From Chloroflexota bacterium (GTDB lineage Bacteria > Chloroflexota > UBA11872), in assembly GCA_022826485.1 (NCBI GenBank), contig JAJDUU010000004.1:1-32207 (forward strand): a DNA stretch of 32,207 bases, read 5' to 3'. The position numbers and the translations under genes were made by a program. The notes under the pieces were generated by a model. It saw nothing but the letters and a program-made list of their open reading frames with translations. It was not told where the DNA came from and ran no database searches. Positions 2,775 through 30,089 of the stretch are shown piece by piece (position 1 is the first letter of the stretch; every line of letters begins with the position of its first letter).

Positions 2775-4439
<1,665 letters not shown>

Positions 4440-4546
4440 GCTGTCGTTCCTCCGACCAGCCCGTTATCGGTGCATGCGCGTCGGGGCCTCTAGCATTCTG
4501 CCGGCGAGGGCGCCCGACGCCACGGCAAGGGCTTTGGGGTGTCTTG

Positions 4547-4561
4547 GTGCGAATTGCGCAC
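4547..4561. promoter_or_regulatory. Palindrome in groEL leader, possible operator
   Basis: GTGCG-AATTG-CGCAC, 5-bp arms around a 5-nt centre. It lies just downstream of the predicted transcription start of groEL, where a repressor would block elongation or a leader hairpin could form. It does not match the CIRCE consensus of HrcA. Confidence 0.4.
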
Positions 4562-4577
4562 TAGGTCCGTCCGCAAA

Positions 4578-4607
4578 ATTGTAGGGAGCGGCCAAGTCGA
4601 GCGTCAA
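4578..4607 (-). promoter_or_regulatory. groEL sigma-70-like promoter
   Basis: On the minus strand TTGACG (4607-4602) is followed after 18 bp by TACAAT (4583-4578). Both boxes match the vegetative consensus at five of six positions. The transcript would start near 4571, giving a leader of about 130 nt. Confidence 0.7.
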
Positions 4608-4724
4608 GCTTGAATGGCCAAGACCGCGGCGTTCGCCGATGTCAGGCTCACGGGGTTCCCCGAGCAATCGGCGCCTCCAGCGGATCGCCCAACCGCTCCA
4701 GGGTGGCCGACCATGGATGCCCGC

Positions 4725-4790
4725 CCCGGCGAGGATCAACACGGCCGGCAGCCTAACGATCAGTGGCAGCTCGATCGGGCCTATGGCTTA
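4725..4790 (-). pseudogene. Degenerate copy of the 37-aa membrane peptide gene
   Basis: In the frame read down from 4784 the minus strand encodes IGPIELPLIVRLPAVLILAG. This aligns with LGPIELVIIVGVAAPVVLAA of the 37-aa peptide gene at 6728-6841. The codon matching that gene's ATG is TAA here (4790-4788), and it now serves as the stop of the upstream 29-aa frame. There is no AGGAGG ahead of it, and the frame runs on without a stop into the groEL leader. It is best read as a decayed paralogue left by a local duplication. The rest of 4440-4724 holds only the groEL promoter and leader. Confidence 0.5.
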
Positions 4791-4877
4791 CCCGATGCCG
4801 GCGCTGGCAACGGCGGTTGCCGCCATCCAGATACCGATGACGATCAAGGCCATCGCCCCAAGAAGACGCCGTCTCAT
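4788..4877 (-). CDS. 29-aa hydrophobic peptide, coupled to upstream lipoprotein
   Basis: A very short frame starts at ATG 4877 and ends at TAA 4788-4790. Its ATG overlaps the TGA of the preceding small lipoprotein gene (ATGA overlap), and AAGGAG lies 7 nt upstream. The product is a basic start (MRRRLL) and one hydrophobic helix (GAMALIVIGIWMAATAVA), so it would insert in the membrane or be exported as a leader. Overlap, ribosome site and hydrophobicity support translation, but at this size it could still be chance. No family is known. Confidence 0.45.
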   Translation of the reverse strand: MRRRLLGAMALIVIGIWMAATAVASAGIG

Positions 4878-5152
4878 GGTCGAGCTCCTTTGCCGTTGCG
4901 CCCCGGCAACGAATCACCACGACCGACTACCCGGAACATGCGCCACAGCACCACGAGCCCCACGATCATCAGCGGGACGCCAATCACCGCGGCGACTCGT
5001 TGAACGGTCGGTACCGTGACCGGCAGTCGGGAGTCGGGCACCGGATCGGTCGGTTCTGGCGCGCTTCGGAGCGCGCGGGTACAGGCCAAAAGGAGCACCG
5101 CCGGACTTCCGCCGCCGACCACGGCCCGTATGCGCGTGAGTATGTGAGACAT
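4874..5152 (-). CDS. 92-aa small lipoprotein/membrane protein
   Basis: ATG 5152 is chosen because GGAAGGAG lies 6 nt upstream. The N terminus is a signal sequence with a lipobox-like LLAC ending at C24, followed by a Pro/Asp-rich stretch and a second hydrophobic helix (about residues 53-70, RVAAVIGVPLMIVGLVVLW). A basic tail ends the protein. The first 18 residues (MSHILTRIRAVVGGG) closely match the start of the 288-aa lipoprotein encoded at 6857-7723, and the similarity continues through the upstream DNA. Beyond the signal sequence the two products differ. It heads a short operon with the 29-aa peptide. Function unknown; envelope location is inferred. Confidence 0.65.
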   Translation of the reverse strand: MSHILTRIRAVVGGGSPAVLLLACTRALRSAPEPTDPVPDSRLPVTVPTVQRVAAVIGVPLMIVGLVVLWRMFRVVGRGDSLPGRNGKGARP

Positions 5153-5345
5153 TGCTGTCTCCTTCCTCTCGGTGGTCGTCATTGGCCACCTGTTGGCACG
5201 GTAGCTCGCAAAATCTCACATTTCAATACTTTCGTGAAGACGAATTCACTAATGTCAGGCGATACCGCCGCGGCATGCCGTCCCGATTCGGGCGGACCGT
5301 GCATCTGGCCACAGCGCTAGTGGTCGTCGCGGAGATCGTGTGGCC
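5093..5345. repeat. Duplicated divergent promoter module, copy 1
   Basis: This segment matches 7673-7925 at a constant offset of 2580 bp with no insertion or deletion. A hand count over 5101-5280 gives 136 of 180 identical bases, highest from the coding start to the promoter (99 of 120). It contains the 5' end and ribosome site of the minus-strand lipoprotein gene, a shared promoter region, and the start of a plus-strand secreted protein. Confidence 0.85.
5198..5226 (-). promoter_or_regulatory. Promoter of the 92-aa lipoprotein operon
   Basis: TTGAAA (5226-5221) and TACCGT (5203-5198) on the minus strand are separated by 17 bp. The same two boxes with the same spacing occur in the duplicated copy at 7778-7806, which supports function. 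Confidence 0.5.
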
Positions 5346-5704
5346 GATGGCGCGCGATCGGTTGCACGGCGCGCCGATGGCGTCACTGACTGAACCGCTG
5401 TCCCTGGCGCCCACGGGCGCGGTCGGCAGCGCGCCGTTCCCGACCTTCAGCACCGACACCGTTGACATCAGCGGCGCGGGCCCCGGCTCACACACGGTGA
5501 AACTTGCCGCCGGCGTCTACGTCGCCTCGGTTTACGGCGGCACGACGGATCGCCGTGACCATGCAGCCCCTGGACGGGCGCTGCGCCGTGACATGGGGGC
5601 GAGCGCCGTTTGCGTCGCTTGCCGTGGACGTCCAGGTCGAAGCCCCGCTGTACCCAGGGCCGACGCGCATCCTGGTCGTTCCGTCGTCGGACGCTACGCG
5701 CTAG
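5275..5704 (+). pseudogene. Secreted beta-rich protein gene with a frameshift
   Basis: ATG 5275 opens a frame with a signal-anchor (MPSRFGRTVHLATALVVV), a Pro/Ala linker and a beta-strand segment TVKLAAGVYVASVYGG. Near 5540-5555 sensible coding moves to the next frame (one extra base) and continues as RIAVTMQPLDGRCAVTWG to TAG 5702-5704. The original frame continues only as low-complexity Arg/Ala/Gly sequence antisense to the next gene. The strand motif resembles VTLAPGLWRATV and TVHLSTGIWVATLE in the two neighbouring minus-strand proteins. Its stop overlaps that of the converging 166-aa gene (CTAG). Either the gene is broken or the assembly has a one-base error. Confidence 0.5.
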
Positions 5705-6201
5705 GGCCACCGGTCGTCGAAGCGCTCCAGCGTCACCGACCACGCGTGGTTGTCGTCGATTGCGTTCGTGCGGACGCGAAACTCGCGCCCGTAGAGCGTG
5801 ACGCCCTGCGTGCCGCGGTCGCCGACCACGAAGACGGCTGGCTGCGCCCGCGTCGGGCCGCTGAAGGTTCGCGTGTTCCAACCGATCGTGCTGGGATAGT
5901 CGTCAACACCGCTGATCTGCGCCCAATCGATGGCGGAACCGTCGGCCTGGACCGTCGCACGCCACAAACCAGGGGCCAGGGTGACGAACTGGTCCTCGCG
6001 CCCCAGGCCCTCGACCAGCACGACCTCTACCACGACGCCCTCGAGATAGATTTCCTCGTTCTCGAACGTGGCGTAGGGGTCCTGGACAGAGGAACCCGCG
6101 CCCAATAACAGCAGCTCGAACCGCACCACGTGCCACACCAAGGCCACGACGACGATGCCCCCCAGGGTCAGCCCGACTATCCGCGCCAAACGTTTCAGCA
6201 T
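5701..6201 (-). CDS. 166-aa membrane-anchored beta-rich protein
   Basis: ATG 6201 has AGGAG 7 nt upstream. The protein has a basic start and one N-terminal helix (residues about 8-28, IVGLTLGGIVVVALVWHVV), so it is anchored with the rest outside. The remainder is predicted beta-rich, with the motif VTLAPGLWRATV at 73-84 and a C-terminal strand HAWSVTL at 152-158. The end aligns with that of the next gene: VFVVGD...FRVRTNA...AWSVTL here against AFVVGTE...VRVTTKA...AWTVTF there. It is last in a four-gene operon, 26 nt after the preceding stop. I recognise no named family; the L..G.w.At motif recalls prepeptidase C-type beta domains only loosely. Confidence 0.75.
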   Translation of the reverse strand: MLKRLARIVGLTLGGIVVVALVWHVVRFELLLLGAGSSVQDPYATFENEEIYLEGVVVEVVLVEGLGREDQFVTLAPGLWRATVQADGSAIDWAQISGVDDYPSTIGWNTRTFSGPTRAQPAVFVVGDRGTQGVTLYGREFRVRTNAIDDNHAWSVTLERFDDRWP

Positions 6202-6227
6202 GTCGAGTCTCCTAGCTGCTCGCGTGG

Positions 6228-6716
6228 TCACCGCGCCGCGTGCCGCGTGAACGTCACCGTCCACGCATAGCCCGGCAGCGCCTTCGTCGTGACGCGCACG
6301 GCGCCCGCATCCATCGATCGCGGGTGTTCGGTTCCGACCACGAAGGCATACCGATGGCCGCTCCACCACATGAGGCCGAAGCCGTCCACGGACTCGACTC
6401 CCACGCCGTCGTAGTCCTCGGTGTTGATCTCGAGCGTTGCGACCCAGATCCCCGTCGATAGGTGCACCGTGGCCGTCTCGTCCCCAACCGCGCTCGCCGT
6501 GACTTCCTCGACGGCCGCCAGTTCATCGAGGCCGATGGTGGGCGCGAACGGGTCATCGGCAGGCCCCGATTGCGCGAGCTCCCTGAACTCCATGAATTCG
6601 CGCCGCTGTAGCTCGGCGGTGACCGTACCGAAGACGACGGCGGCGCAGATCCCCACCAGGGCAAGCGTCGCCACCGTCATGGCGGTGGCGGTCAGGGTCG
6701 GGTGTGGGATGCGCAT
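6228..6716 (-). CDS. 162-aa membrane-anchored beta-rich protein, paralogue
   Basis: Starts at ATG 6716 with GGGAG 7 nt upstream; that site overlaps the stop of the 37-aa peptide gene, so translation is likely coupled. A single helix (residues about 12-33) is followed by a short helical, acidic stem and a beta domain. The motif TVHLSTGIWVATLE is at 83-96 and the closing strand YAWTVTF at 150-156. It is a clear paralogue of the 166-aa protein encoded next, with the same order of elements. Both would be displayed outside the cytoplasmic membrane. Function and ligand are unknown. Confidence 0.75.
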   Translation of the reverse strand: MRIPHPTLTATAMTVATLALVGICAAVVFGTVTAELQRREFMEFRELAQSGPADDPFAPTIGLDELAAVEEVTASAVGDETATVHLSTGIWVATLEINTEDYDGVGVESVDGFGLMWWSGHRYAFVVGTEHPRSMDAGAVRVTTKALPGYAWTVTFTRHAAR

Positions 6717-6727
6717 GAGAGTCTCCC

Positions 6728-6841
6728 TTATCTAGGTCCTTGAAAGCTGAGCCACAGCCACCGCGCCGCCGCAATGGCGGCGAGGACGACCGGCGCGGCG
6801 ACCCCGACGATGATCACGAGCTCAATCGGTCCTAACGGCAT
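6728..6841 (-). CDS. 37-aa one-helix membrane peptide
   Basis: ATG 6841 follows a perfect AGGAGG by 5 nt and the frame ends at TAA 6728-6730. The peptide is almost entirely one membrane helix (MPLGPIELVIIVGVAAPVVL onward) ending in a Trp-rich basic segment RWLWLSFQ. It sits between the 288-aa lipoprotein gene (15-nt gap) and the 162-aa gene whose ribosome site overlaps its stop. A related but broken copy is at 4725-4790. The ribosome site, operon position and paralogue together make it a probable real gene. Function unknown; it may be a small partner of the neighbouring envelope proteins. Confidence 0.65.
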   Translation of the reverse strand: MPLGPIELVIIVGVAAPVVLAAIAAARWLWLSFQGPR

Positions 6842-6856
6842 TGTGGCCTCCTTCAG

Positions 6857-7723
6857 TTAGTCGTCGGGGTACACGATGCGGGTGGTGGCGTTCGGCGGAA
6901 CGTTGCAGGGCTCCACCGTCTCGACGGGCACGCTGACCCAGCCCTCGCCGACCGCGGGCTCGGTGATCTCGGATGACGGCGAGGCCTGGAGGCTCGCGTC
7001 GTCGGCGCTGGCTGGAACCTCAACCACGACCTCGCTGACCACGATGTTTCCGCACGGGTCGGCGTCCGGTGGCTCGATGGGAATTACTCCCGCAACGGCC
7101 GGCAGCAGATTCGGTCCCGTGCCGCGACTGTCGCGGAAATCGTCAATCGACGCCCACCCCGTGCCCTCGCGCAGGATCTCCGGTGGTACGTCGGACATGC
7201 GCTCCCAGGAGTAGACAATGAGCTCGTCGCGGAACACATCGCCCGTGCGCACGGTCGTGCCCGACGGCACGTGCAGGGCGGGCACTCGCGCGTTGATGAT
7301 GGCCTCGGTGCCCCGCCGGCGCATGTCGTCCAGCGGGTATGCCGAGCGGGCATCGGCCAACCGCCGCTCGATCTCACTGGGGTCCCTGATGATCCGCACG
7401 GCCTCGGAGCTCTCGGCGGGCGAGCTGGTCGTGAAGTAGGGCATCACGGCCGGTCCCGTCACCCGATAGTCATGCAGCCCATTGAGTGACGCGACCCCGA
7501 GGCGCTCTCGCGTGGCTGAATGCATGGTGTCCCAGTAGTAGGCGATCACGTCGTCTGGGACGACATCCCCAAGGCGCACGGTCGTCCCCTCGGGCACGAT
7601 GAGCGCGGGCGCCCGGGCGACGGGCACGGGGCTTCCACATGCCGCCAGCGCGCCGACCACCAGCCCCGCGATGAGCACCGCCAGGACTCCGCCGCCGACC
7701 ACGGCCCGTGTGTGGGTGAGCAA
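6857..7723 (-). CDS. Lipoprotein with two internal repeats (288 aa)
   Basis: A signal sequence with lipobox LAAC (C29) is followed by two related units of about 60 residues at 39-95 and 148-209. Each opens with PAL.VP.GTTVR.GDV, then a segment with Y.W, an ASL/ASI..F/HD stretch and TGP..(L/M)P. A Cys-containing Ser/Glu-rich tail ends the protein. The TTG at 7723 is shown as start, but by alignment with the duplicated copy at 5152 the real first codon corresponds to 7732, which is ACG instead of ATG and has GGAAGGAG 6 nt upstream. An in-frame TAG just upstream excludes an earlier start. First gene of a four-gene envelope operon with its promoter at 7778-7806. No family recognised. Confidence 0.7.
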   Translation of the reverse strand: MLTHTRAVVGGGVLAVLIAGLVVGALAACGSPVPVARAPALIVPEGTTVRLGDVVPDDVIAYYWDTMHSATRERLGVASLNGLHDYRVTGPAVMPYFTTSSPAESSEAVRIIRDPSEIERRLADARSAYPLDDMRRRGTEAIINARVPALHVPSGTTVRTGDVFRDELIVYSWERMSDVPPEILREGTGWASIDDFRDSRGTGPNLLPAVAGVIPIEPPDADPCGNIVVSEVVVEVPASADDASLQASPSSEITEPAVGEGWVSVPVETVEPCNVPPNATTRIVYPDD

Positions 7724-7925
7724 GTGAGACGTTGCTGTCTCCTTCCTCTAGGCGGTCGTAGTTGATCACCTATCGGCACCGTAGCTCGCGAAACCTCACA
7801 TAACAATTCCAGCATGAAGACTCGTTCGCTAGAGTCGGGTGCTCCAGTTGCGCCGTGCTGTCGCGACTTGAGCGGGCCGGGAATTTGGCTACCGCGATCA
7901 TCGTCTTTGTGGCGGTTTCTTGGGG
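7673..7925. repeat. Duplicated divergent promoter module, copy 2
   Basis: Partner of 5093-5345, always 2580 bp away. The ribosome site GGAAGGAGACAGCA and the promoter boxes are kept, while the start codon of the minus-strand gene is ACG. On the plus side only the signal-peptide-sized start of the secreted gene remains. Confidence 0.85.
7778..7806 (-). promoter_or_regulatory. Promoter of the repeat-lipoprotein operon
   Basis: TTGTTA (7806-7801) and TACGGT (7783-7778) on the minus strand are 17 bp apart, matching the boxes at 5198-5226 in position and spacing. Confidence 0.45.
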
Positions 7926-7938
7926 CGTGCCACACTGA
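7855..7938 (+). pseudogene. Signal-peptide stub of the duplicated secreted gene
   Basis: From GTG 7855 the frame reads VLSRLERAGNLATAIIVFVA then VSWGVPH and stops at TGA 7936-7938. This aligns without gaps to the start of the gene at 5275 (MPSRFGRTVHLATALVVV). Only 27 residues remain, so it is a truncated remnant. The Rrf2 regulator gene starts 27 nt further on and may have replaced the rest. Confidence 0.55.
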
Positions 7939-7965
7939 GGCACCCCTCCCGCGGCGACCTGATTC

Positions 7966-8403
7966 ATGCGCCTGTCCATGCGAAGCGACTACGGGGTCCG
8001 CGCCCTCACGGACCTGGCGATGCACCACGGGCAGGGGCCGATCCAGAGCGCGGACGTGGCGCGGCGCATGTCCATCCCGCCGGTGTACCTGGACCAGGTG
8101 TTCAGCGCGCTGCGCAAGGCCGGGCTGGTGCGCAGCACCCGCGGTCCGCAGGGCGGCCACGAGCTGGCGCGCGGACCCGACGCCATCACCATGAGCGATA
8201 TCGTCACCGTGCTGGAAGGTCCGCTGCCGATCCTGGATTGCCTGGAGGACGCGGCGGCCTGCGAGCTGACGGATACGTGCTCGCAGCGGCCGGTGTGGGG
8301 GCGCGTGCGCGAGGCCATCCTGACCTCGCTGGCAGAGGTGAGCCTGGCCGAGTTGGCCGTCGACATGCAGGAAGCCCGCGAGCGGCCCGCCTACAGCATC
8401 TAG
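7966..8403 (+). CDS. Rrf2-family Fe-S type transcriptional regulator
   Basis: A 145-aa winged-helix regulator of the Rrf2/IscR/CymR family. The start MRLSMRSDYGVRAL is the family's usual N terminus. The recognition region is VYLDQVFSALRKAGLVRSTRGPQ, cut here as residues about 41-63. Three cysteines C92, C99 and C105 match the IscR cluster ligands C92, C98 and C104, so an Fe-S cluster is likely. The next gene starts 2 nt after its stop, and LarE follows, so it probably controls its own sulfur-related operon in response to iron-sulfur status or cysteine. The direct ligand is an inference. Confidence 0.9.
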   Translation: MRLSMRSDYGVRALTDLAMHHGQGPIQSADVARRMSIPPVYLDQVFSALRKAGLVRSTRGPQGGHELARGPDAITMSDIVTVLEGPLPILDCLEDAAACELTDTCSQRPVWGRVREAILTSLAEVSLAELAVDMQEARERPAYSI

Positions 8404-11780: not shown

Positions 11781-12041
11781 ATGACCGATTGGCCTCTGCA
11801 GGACGCCAAGAACCGCTTCAGCGCCGTGGTCAACGCCGCCCTCGCCGGCGCGCCGCAGCGGGTGACCCGCCGGGGCGAACCCGCGGTCGTGGTGTTGGCG
11901 GTGGACGAGTACGAGCGCCTCCGCCAGCTGGAGAAGACCAACGCGCCCACATTCGTCGAGCATCTGCTCGCCATCCCCAAGGGCGGGCCGGATGACCTGT
12001 TCGATCGAGCCCCGACCAAACTTCGCGACGTTGAGTGGTGA
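11781..12041 (+). CDS. Phd/YefM-family antitoxin
   Basis: 86-aa antitoxin. The N-terminal DNA-binding fold is typical: DWPLQDAKNRFSAVV, then VTRRGEPAVVVLAVDEYERL. The acidic, flexible C terminus (from about residue 55) would wrap the toxin. Its TGA overlaps the toxin ATG (TGATG form, one shared base), so synthesis is coupled. Repeats just upstream are a probable autoregulatory operator. Confidence 0.9.
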   Translation: MTDWPLQDAKNRFSAVVNAALAGAPQRVTRRGEPAVVVLAVDEYERLRQLEKTNAPTFVEHLLAIPKGGPDDLFDRAPTKLRDVEW

Positions 12042-12469
12042 TGTATCTGCTGGACACCAACGTCGTATCCGCCCTCCGCCGGCCCGACCGTCATCCCGGG
12101 CCAATCGCGTGGCTCCAGGCCCAGCGGACATCGGACGTGTTTCTGAGCGTGGTGACTATCGGCGAGATCGAGCGGGGCATCGCCCAGCAGCGGCATCGCG
12201 ACCCATCGTTCGCGTCGGAGCTGTCCGATTGGCTAGACCGGATACTCGCCTGGTACGGCGACCGGGTGATCGCCGTCGGTGTTCCCACCGCACGTCGGTG
12301 GGGAAGTCTGTCGGGGGACCTCGGGAACGAGTCCGCGGACCTGCTCATCGCGGCCACGGCGCTGGAGCACGGGCTGACCGTCGTGACTCGCAACGTCAGG
12401 CACTTCGAGCCGACGGGCGTGGAGGCGCTCGATCCATTTGCCGGAGGCGGGGAGTCCGCCGCTAGTTGA
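12041..12469 (+). CDS. PIN-domain toxin (VapC/FitB-like RNase)
   Basis: 142-aa PIN ribonuclease expected to cut RNA with Mg or Mn. The acidic site is complete: D5 (LLDTN), E42 (IGEIERG), D100 (ESADLLIAATA), with N118 in the TRNVRHF motif. ATG 12041 is preferred; two GTG codons just before it are alternative starts. It is paired with a Phd-type antitoxin in place of the more usual AbrB or RHH partner, a combination known for FitB-like toxins. Confidence 0.92.
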   Translation: MYLLDTNVVSALRRPDRHPGPIAWLQAQRTSDVFLSVVTIGEIERGIAQQRHRDPSFASELSDWLDRILAWYGDRVIAVGVPTARRWGSLSGDLGNESADLLIAATALEHGLTVVTRNVRHFEPTGVEALDPFAGGGESAAS

Positions 12470-18632: not shown

Positions 18633-19055
18633 GTGCGCTTGGTCGATACCAACGTGCTCATCTACGCGGCGAGCCCGGCAACCGTCGAGCCTGACAAGCG
18701 CCGTCGGGCGCGACAACTCCTGACGCAGCCTGACCTTGCCGTGTCGGTGCAGGTGCTGCAAGAGTTCTATCACCAGGCGACGCGTCCGACGCGGCCGGGT
18801 CGGTTGACTCACCGTCAGGCGGTGCGCTTTCTTGAGCCCATTCTGAGATTTCCGATTCAGGCCATGACGCTTGAGGTATTTGCTTCCGCCGTTGCCAACA
18901 GCCAACGGTTCCAGCTGTCGTATTGGGACGGGGCGATCCTCGCCGCTGCGCGCGCCGCTGGGTGCGACGCGGTGTATTCCGAGGACTTGAACCCGGAGCA
19001 GGACTATGACGGCCTGCGCGTGATCAATCCGTTTCGCGAGGCCTTGGCGACGTGA
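18633..19055 (+). CDS. PIN-domain toxin (VapC-like RNase)
   Basis: 140-aa PIN ribonuclease starting at GTG 18633. The acidic residues are D5 (LVDTNVLIYA), E44 (VLQEFYHQ), D99 (SYWDGAILAAA) and D118 (YSEDLN). All are present, so it should be active. It forms a pair with the RHH antitoxin 5 nt upstream and is the only intact toxin in this patch. Confidence 0.92.
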   Translation: MRLVDTNVLIYAASPATVEPDKRRRARQLLTQPDLAVSVQVLQEFYHQATRPTRPGRLTHRQAVRFLEPILRFPIQAMTLEVFASAVANSQRFQLSYWDGAILAAARAAGCDAVYSEDLNPEQDYDGLRVINPFREALAT

Positions 19056-29219: not shown

Positions 29220-29414
29220 AGGCAAGGACAGAACTGTTCGGCAAAAGCCGTTCCTTACCCCGCCGGTCCGCCCAACCGGCTCGCCCGCACGCTACCCAAC
29301 GGCATGCGCCGCGTCAAAGCGGCCGGGTGGAACCAGGCCTCAGCCGGTCGAAACGCCCGCTTCCGTGATGCTCAGACGTAACACGACGGCCCCGTCATTT
29401 GAGGTGGCCCGGTG

Positions 29415-29433
29415 TTAGTCATACTCTTAGTCA
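29415..29433. promoter_or_regulatory. TTAGTCA direct repeats before the second Phd/PIN pair
   Basis: TTAGTCA occurs at 29415-29421 and 29427-29433, 12 bp apart (about one helix turn), 33 nt before the antitoxin ATG. A probable operator and promoter region in an otherwise GC-rich stretch. Confidence 0.45.
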
Positions 29434-29465
29434 ATCACGCGCGCGACGCGCCCGAGGAGTGGGCC

Positions 29466-29699
29466 ATGGCAACGGTGAACGTCCACGAAGCGAAGACTCA
29501 CCTGTCGCGCCTGCTGGCGCAGGTCGAGGCGGGTGAAGAGGTGACCATCGCCCGCAATGGCAAGCCCGTGGCCCGGATGGTGCCCGCGCGCGAGACAGGC
29601 CGCCCCCAACCCGACGTATTCAAGGGACAAGTCGTCGTTCCCGACAGCTTTTTCGACCCGCTTCCCGAGGAAGAGTTGCGCCTGTGGGAGGGTGGCTGA
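29466..29699 (+). CDS. Phd/YefM-family antitoxin
   Basis: 77-aa antitoxin starting at ATG 29466 with GAGGAG about 7 nt upstream. The DNA-binding half is MATVNVHEAKTHLSRLLA, then VTIARNGKPVARMVPA. The C-terminal tail DSFFDPLPEEELRLWEGG is a common toxin-binding end. The toxin GTG begins 3 nt after the TGA. Confidence 0.9.
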   Translation: MATVNVHEAKTHLSRLLAQVEAGEEVTIARNGKPVARMVPARETGRPQPDVFKGQVVVPDSFFDPLPEEELRLWEGG

Positions 29700-29702
29700 A
29701 CC

Positions 29703-30089
29703 GTGCGGCTGCTGCTCGACACCCACGCGTTTCTATGGTGGTCCGAGGACAATCCGAGGTTACCTCCGCCCGCTCGGCAAGCTATCCGGGACGAGAACAA
29801 CGACGTATTGATCAGCGCCGCCACAGCCTGGGAAATCACCACCAAGCATCGGATCGGCAAACTGCCTGACGCCGACCCCATCGCCTCCGACATTCCCGGA
29901 GCCATCGCCGCCCAGGGCTTCCAGGAACTCCCCATCACCGTCGCCGAAGCCGCCCGCGCCGGCGCCCTCCCCGGCCCCCACCGCGACCCCTTCGACCGCA
30001 TGCTCATCGCCCAGGCCCTCTCCCACAACCTCACCCTCATCTCCAACGACGCCGCCTTTGACCGCTACGCCATTAACCGCCTCTGGTAA
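29703..30089 (+). CDS. PIN-domain toxin (VapC-like)
   Basis: 128-aa PIN ribonuclease starting at GTG 29703. The motifs are D6 (LLLDTHAFLWW), E44 (AATAWEITTKHRIGKL), D98 (RDPFDRMLIAQA) and D116 (SNDAAF), the LLDTH subgroup of VapC. Complete active site. Forms an operon with the Phd antitoxin. It converges on the hsdR gene with 76 nt between them. Confidence 0.93.
   Translation: MRLLLDTHAFLWWSEDNPRLPPPARQAIRDENNDVLISAATAWEITTKHRIGKLPDADPIASDIPGAIAAQGFQELPITVAEAARAGALPGPHRDPFDRMLIAQALSHNLTLISNDAAFDRYAINRLW

Follow-up and report, generated by a model that had tools for sequence, protein, structure and literature searches.

Comparison of a repeated module in a 32,207-nt stretch of Chloroflexota DNA (the window, meaning the whole stretch that was analyzed) with related genomes indicates, at a probability of about 70%, that its two copies are an expression-and-export leader cassette of a small envelope-protein multigene family of one Chloroflexota genus. 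Although the repeat could pass for a plain duplication, it looks like a leader cassette put to repeated use, with hairpins that covary, and a phage carries it too. The top-scoring and largest direct-repeat family in a repeat search of the window is an ungapped pair of 240 nt, 5093-5332 (copy 1, win1) and 7673-7912 (copy 2, win2), with an offset of 2580 and 75% identity. A column count gave 13-18 identical positions per 20 bases inside the repeat and about 6 to the left of 5093 and to the right of about 5330, and BLASTN against the whole own genome returned these two copies only (pair E = 1.9e-41, 77%). The original prediction of two copies at these coordinates, 2580 bp apart and free of indels, is thus borne out by an alignment whose similarity lies far above chance (E ~1e-41) and in which no indel breaks the offset.

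A search of related genomes, proposed as a check on that prediction, detected the block by DNA in all six genomes of the genus and in 0 of 35 other genomes of the class. A covariance model found 21 copies in the six genus genomes and one more in a genome of the sister genus; five of the six genus genomes carry 2-8 cassettes, and the remaining one carries a single cassette. Pattern matches in public genomes numbered eight, half of them (4/8) in other phyla. From names in public records (isolates RHO3, COS3 and others), we infer that members of the genus are sponge symbionts. Cassette copies in the relatives' genomes are designated G00x plus a letter. In two species, paired cassettes face each other at a distance of ~3 kb (G005c and G005f at locus L030, G002d and G002f at L031) and head convergent gene sets of one and the same family.

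Comparison of 23 copies identified the minus-strand half of the module as the portable unit, comprising a promoter, two hairpins and mostly a lipoprotein signal peptide. On the minus strand, conservation extends from a TTG −35 element over 17 bp to TACGGT and on through the 5′ UTR, the ribosome site AGGAAGGAG and the start codon to MSHVLTRTRAVVGGGILAVLLLAC; past the cysteine of the signal peptide the cassette sequences diverge. The promoter consensus is TTG-N17-TACGGT with the unusual core GCGAGCTACNNTGC, and its geometry is kept in 20 of the 23 copies and one base shorter in the other three. Both window copies contain the predicted minus-strand promoter with matching 17-bp spacing: TTGAAA-N17-TACCGT in copy 1 (5198..5226, elements at 5226-5221 and 5203-5198, core GCGAGCTACCGTGC) and TTGTTA-N17-TACGGT in copy 2 (7778..7806, elements at 7806-7801 and 7783-7778, core GCGAGCTACGGTGC). 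Judged by its sequence the promoter is probably active, with a predicted transcription start that was placed by the −10 element. A search for the core GCGAGCTACNNTGC in six genomes returned 17 sites, 16 of which are cassettes, compared to six sites for the reversed control; the core is nearly private to cassettes. The core-pattern site at L070 was rejected as a cassette, as it lacks hairpin and leader and is likely a chance match.

The first of the two hairpins lies in the 5′ UTR and has eight pairs. It is formed on the minus strand by AGGTGGCC AATGAC GACCACCG in copy 1 (5170..5191) and by AGGTGATC AACTAC GACCGCCT in copy 2 (7750..7771), as assigned from folding and from compensatory changes across the 23 copies, which are two-sided in five of the eight pairs. 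Hairpin 2, with five pairs, covers the start codon together with the 3′ portion of the ribosome site (minus strand; GAGAC AGCAAT GTCTC at 5146..5161 in copy 1, 7726..7741 in copy 2), and its stem is intact in copy 2 despite the change from ATG to ACG. Here, two-sided changes affect one pair only. The pair that joins the ribosome site to codon 2 occurs as G-C in 12 copies, A-U in eight and G-U in three, and an A-U/G-C difference at this pair separates G005c from G002d, which precede near-identical genes. Hairpin 2 is absent from G005f and G002f.

Over both hairpins (13 pairs, 23 copies), 88.6% of cells are paired versus 28–50% in slid controls, and 25 cells changed two-sidedly versus 10.8 ± 3.1 in shuffles. 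The observed values exceed all shuffles for cells and for the covariation score, and not all of them for pair types (119/500) or for pairs with a two-sided change (52/500). As the copies are related and gene conversion is possible, cell counts overstate independent events, and the covariation counts as support for the hairpins rather than proof. With the first 15 copies alone, the test had a matching outcome, and minimum-energy folds of single copies contain both hairpins in most cases. Rfam covariance models gave no match near the gathering score in 4400-8100. A long-range pairing between the ribosome site and the CTCCTCTT signal-peptide codons, proposed by the alignment fold, is broken by G003a, G005e and win2 and was discarded.

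The dyad AGGTGG-N10-CCACCT just past the −10 element could also be read as a DNA operator for a dimeric repressor, which would place the constraint on DNA and spacing; every copy has it where transcription is predicted to start, and its distance from the −10 is nearly constant. We consider an operator improbable, since the half-sites vary among the copies of one genome, G002 (GGTGGTC, GGTGGCC, GGTGGGC, GGTGAGC, GGTAGCC), while complementarity is kept, so that one repressor would hardly read them all. Moreover, G-U pairs are tolerated in the dyad, and G-U pairs in the stems point to RNA.

Constraint on spacing was what the original prediction had emphasized, and the hairpins are a second constraint beside it that had not been seen. 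At the groEL-Rrf2 locus the divergent start codons are separated by 122 nt in seven of seven copies from five genomes (win1, win2, G003a, G004a, G002a, G002b, G005a). No frame is open in all copies, and the interval was therefore rejected as coding. The distal 57 nt of the gap are only 49–84% identical between pairs and accumulated ~121 substitutions on the tree with zero net length change. From the indel/substitution ratio of the locus (1 indel per 21 substitutions in the groEL-side gap to 24 per 322 in the plus-strand gene and its downstream region), about 6–9 indels would be expected, a rough estimate, since a tree length drawn from 57 bases is uncertain. The constant 122 nt in seven copies without length change supports and extends the idea of selection on spacing; the spacing would be kept because the promoter, the 5′ UTR and the control region between the divergent genes are still functional. 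A helical-phase regulator site, suggested as one possible target of this selection, is not supported. The conserved half is the minus-strand one, and the constraint there includes two covarying hairpins.

The groEL-Rrf2 locus, bounded in the window by groEL (2775-4439, minus) and the Rrf2 gene (7966-8403, plus; Pfam E = 1e-38), is syntenic, and its gene content between both ends varies from genome to genome. The module had been described as including the start of a minus-strand lipoprotein gene. This is true of copy 2, which leads into a large lipoprotein, a 291-codon ORF with a chimeric leader (6857..7732, minus), but the copy 1 gene (4874..5152, minus) encodes a small membrane protein of 92 aa with the leader MSHILTRIRAVVGGGSPAVLLLAC and a second hydrophobic stretch. 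The first codons are likewise shared except for the start codon itself, which is ATG in copy 1 (5152-5150) and ACG in copy 2 (7732-7730); translation of copy 2 is in doubt given this ACG, and the alternative start is TTG at 7723. On the plus strand, the predicted gene start is present in both copies, and the gene is frameshifted in copy 1 (5275..5704, a paralogue of the membrane-anchored protein family) and reduced in copy 2 to a 27-codon remnant fused to the Rrf2 upstream region (7855..7938). The plus-strand gene is decayed in five of seven locus copies and absent beside most copies elsewhere; the conserved and reused part is thus the minus-strand half, and a defined plus-strand promoter, also suggested in the prediction, finds no support.

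Two further minus-strand genes encode a membrane-anchored beta-domain protein of 166 aa (5701..6201) and its membrane-anchored paralogue of 162 aa (6228..6716). In the relative G004 the plus-strand gene is intact, and it shows a match to the 166-aa protein (E = 5.8e-6), indicating that the genes on both sides are one family. Downstream of the copy 2 lipoprotein ORF, and in the same direction, lies a 37-aa single-TM ORF (MPLGPIELVII..., 6728..6841, minus). Single-TM ORFs starting with (M)xLGPxE(L/F)xII or similar recur downstream of cassettes (window 6728-6841, L029, L025, L063, L098), and by eye their starts resemble TatA-like N-termini. The copy 2 lipoprotein contains an internal duplication (7196-7292 and 7523-7619; 97 nt, 71%), corresponding to two related domains. 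Palindromic repeats of the form CGTCATTCCGGCG...CCGGAATCCAGG are dispersed in the window (about eight, at 2453, 2545, 12551, 12605, 16033, 20539, 21721 and 26428), and inspection of translations by eye pointed to PIN-like toxin-antitoxin pairs at 12035-12469, 18633-19055 and 29412-30089.

By eye, translations show a candidate lipobox for putative SPase II cleavage, VLLLAC in nearly all copies and ALAAC in copy 2. Numerous cassette-headed genes are disrupted or very short. The cargo proteins had no Pfam match above cut-off and no match among PDB sequences, and the window proteins tested had none in PHROGs. A structure predicted for the 166-aa protein (pLDDT 80, pTM 0.64) returned in a fold search no match with E below 0.001 and only generic beta-sandwich matches with middling Z; no function is therefore read from this fold.

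The edges of copy 2 coincide with two rearrangements. Its mature lipoprotein is 69% identical (179/260) to that of G005g and 70% identical to that of G002g, whereas the leaders of these two (MPRMPRPT...) agree with the copy 2 leader at only 11/31 and 10/31 positions. The copy 2 leader instead tracks copy 1 up to GCGGTGCTC, and the switch point at about 7673 is the left edge of the repeat. By this comparison, copy 2 is a chimera in which the leader is fused to another protein than usual. All close homologues of its lipoprotein lie behind a cassette promoter and hairpin. At the right edge, the plus-strand gene breaks off and passes directly into the TTGTGGCGG...CACACTGA stretch found ahead of Rrf2 in the compared genomes; this edge is a deletion that leaves 27 plus-gene codons beside Rrf2. 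Leader exchange and deletion of the plus-strand gene thus account for both repeat edges. Among the cassettes we also observe one kind of leader ahead of differing C-termini and one kind of mature lipoprotein behind differing leaders. Low divergence at fourfold sites of the leader (0–4 of 12–19 between paralogues; groEL, 0.09–0.15 between species) was dropped as a sign of nucleotide constraint, which it does not separate from gene conversion and codon bias.

A simple local duplication of two divergent genes that decay without special constraint, with the similarity reflecting shared ancestry, would fit the damage to both plus-strand genes, the ACG in place of ATG in copy 2 and the gain and loss of genes at the locus between species. 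However, in the module tree, which is poorly resolved overall, win1 clusters with G003a instead of win2 (support 90/82), indicating that the duplication behind the second copy is not recent. The event would predate the split from G003, and yet the 122-nt gap is constant in seven copies, the stems covary and the promoter core is kept where the leaders are otherwise unrelated. Mere duplication thus appears an unlikely account of the pair.

One cassette was detected by pattern scan on a phage contig (L063, IMG/VR UViG_3300012932_000019), where it is flanked by genes for head morphogenesis and for a protease. At L063:5308-5945 it precedes a 198-aa putative lipoprotein, followed by a small LGPLE..-type TM ORF like that at 6728-6841 in the window. 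This phage copy, the dispersed positions with sharp edges and a transposase gene near G005g might suggest that the cassette is itself a mobile element (MITE-like or phage cargo) landing upstream of genes, which we regard as quite unlikely, as an unsystematic look at the edges noticed no terminal repeats or target duplications and nearly every copy is in promoter position before a gene of a few recurring families. Phage 'moron' cargo genes include superinfection-exclusion lipoproteins of the Ltp type (PMC3952083). The phage contig resembles these in gene setting: between phage structural genes lies a gene for a putative surface lipoprotein, headed by a predicted promoter of its own.

Under the leader-cassette reading that we favor, a sigma70-like minus-strand promoter would start an mRNA whose predicted 5′ end is hairpin 1, which may stabilize or regulate the message. 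Hairpin 2 would hold the ribosome site and AUG and limit initiation, and the signal peptide, of lipoprotein type in most copies, would target the product to the membrane, placing various envelope proteins under one shared control. Recombination within the signal peptide would exchange leaders, and copy 2 would have arisen by such an exchange together with the deletion of its plus-strand gene. A bolder version, in which phage and chromosome alike carry a portable RNA-controlled leader that brings along a promoter core of its own plus two regulatory hairpins and is swapped by recombination inside the signal peptide, is conceivable but tentative.

Stem-loops of the ompA type at the 5′ end stabilize bacterial mRNA. 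Like these, the cassette hairpin is at or near the predicted 5′ end with the ribosome site after it, but here it is part of a duplicated cassette. In the vsp genes of Mycoplasma bovis, a 70-bp non-coding block ahead of the ATG and a lipoprotein signal peptide of 31 aa are conserved, and a variable part comes after them; the genes form one cluster beside a tyrosine recombinase and have repetitive variable regions (PMC3365025). The cassette likewise places a conserved non-coding upstream block and a lipoprotein signal peptide before variable mature parts. In contrast to vsp, its copies are dispersed, its cargo falls into several families and is not a set of repeat variants, and it has two covarying hairpins. 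Tyrosine recombinase (PF00589) matches were found on contigs C41, C48 and C50 only and none on the cassette contig C20; the cassette is thus not a member of the M. bovis vsp system.

The cassette would be a natural case in which one control-and-export front end is retained while the protein behind it is changed, known so far from pathogens (mycoplasma vsp). The promoter core and two hairpins offer a searchable tag for envelope-protein genes of an uncultured Chloroflexota genus and its carrier phages, and the covarying hairpins allow a direct reporter test of translation or stability control. If the bolder version is true, a portable leader would let a symbiont place different surface proteins under one common control.
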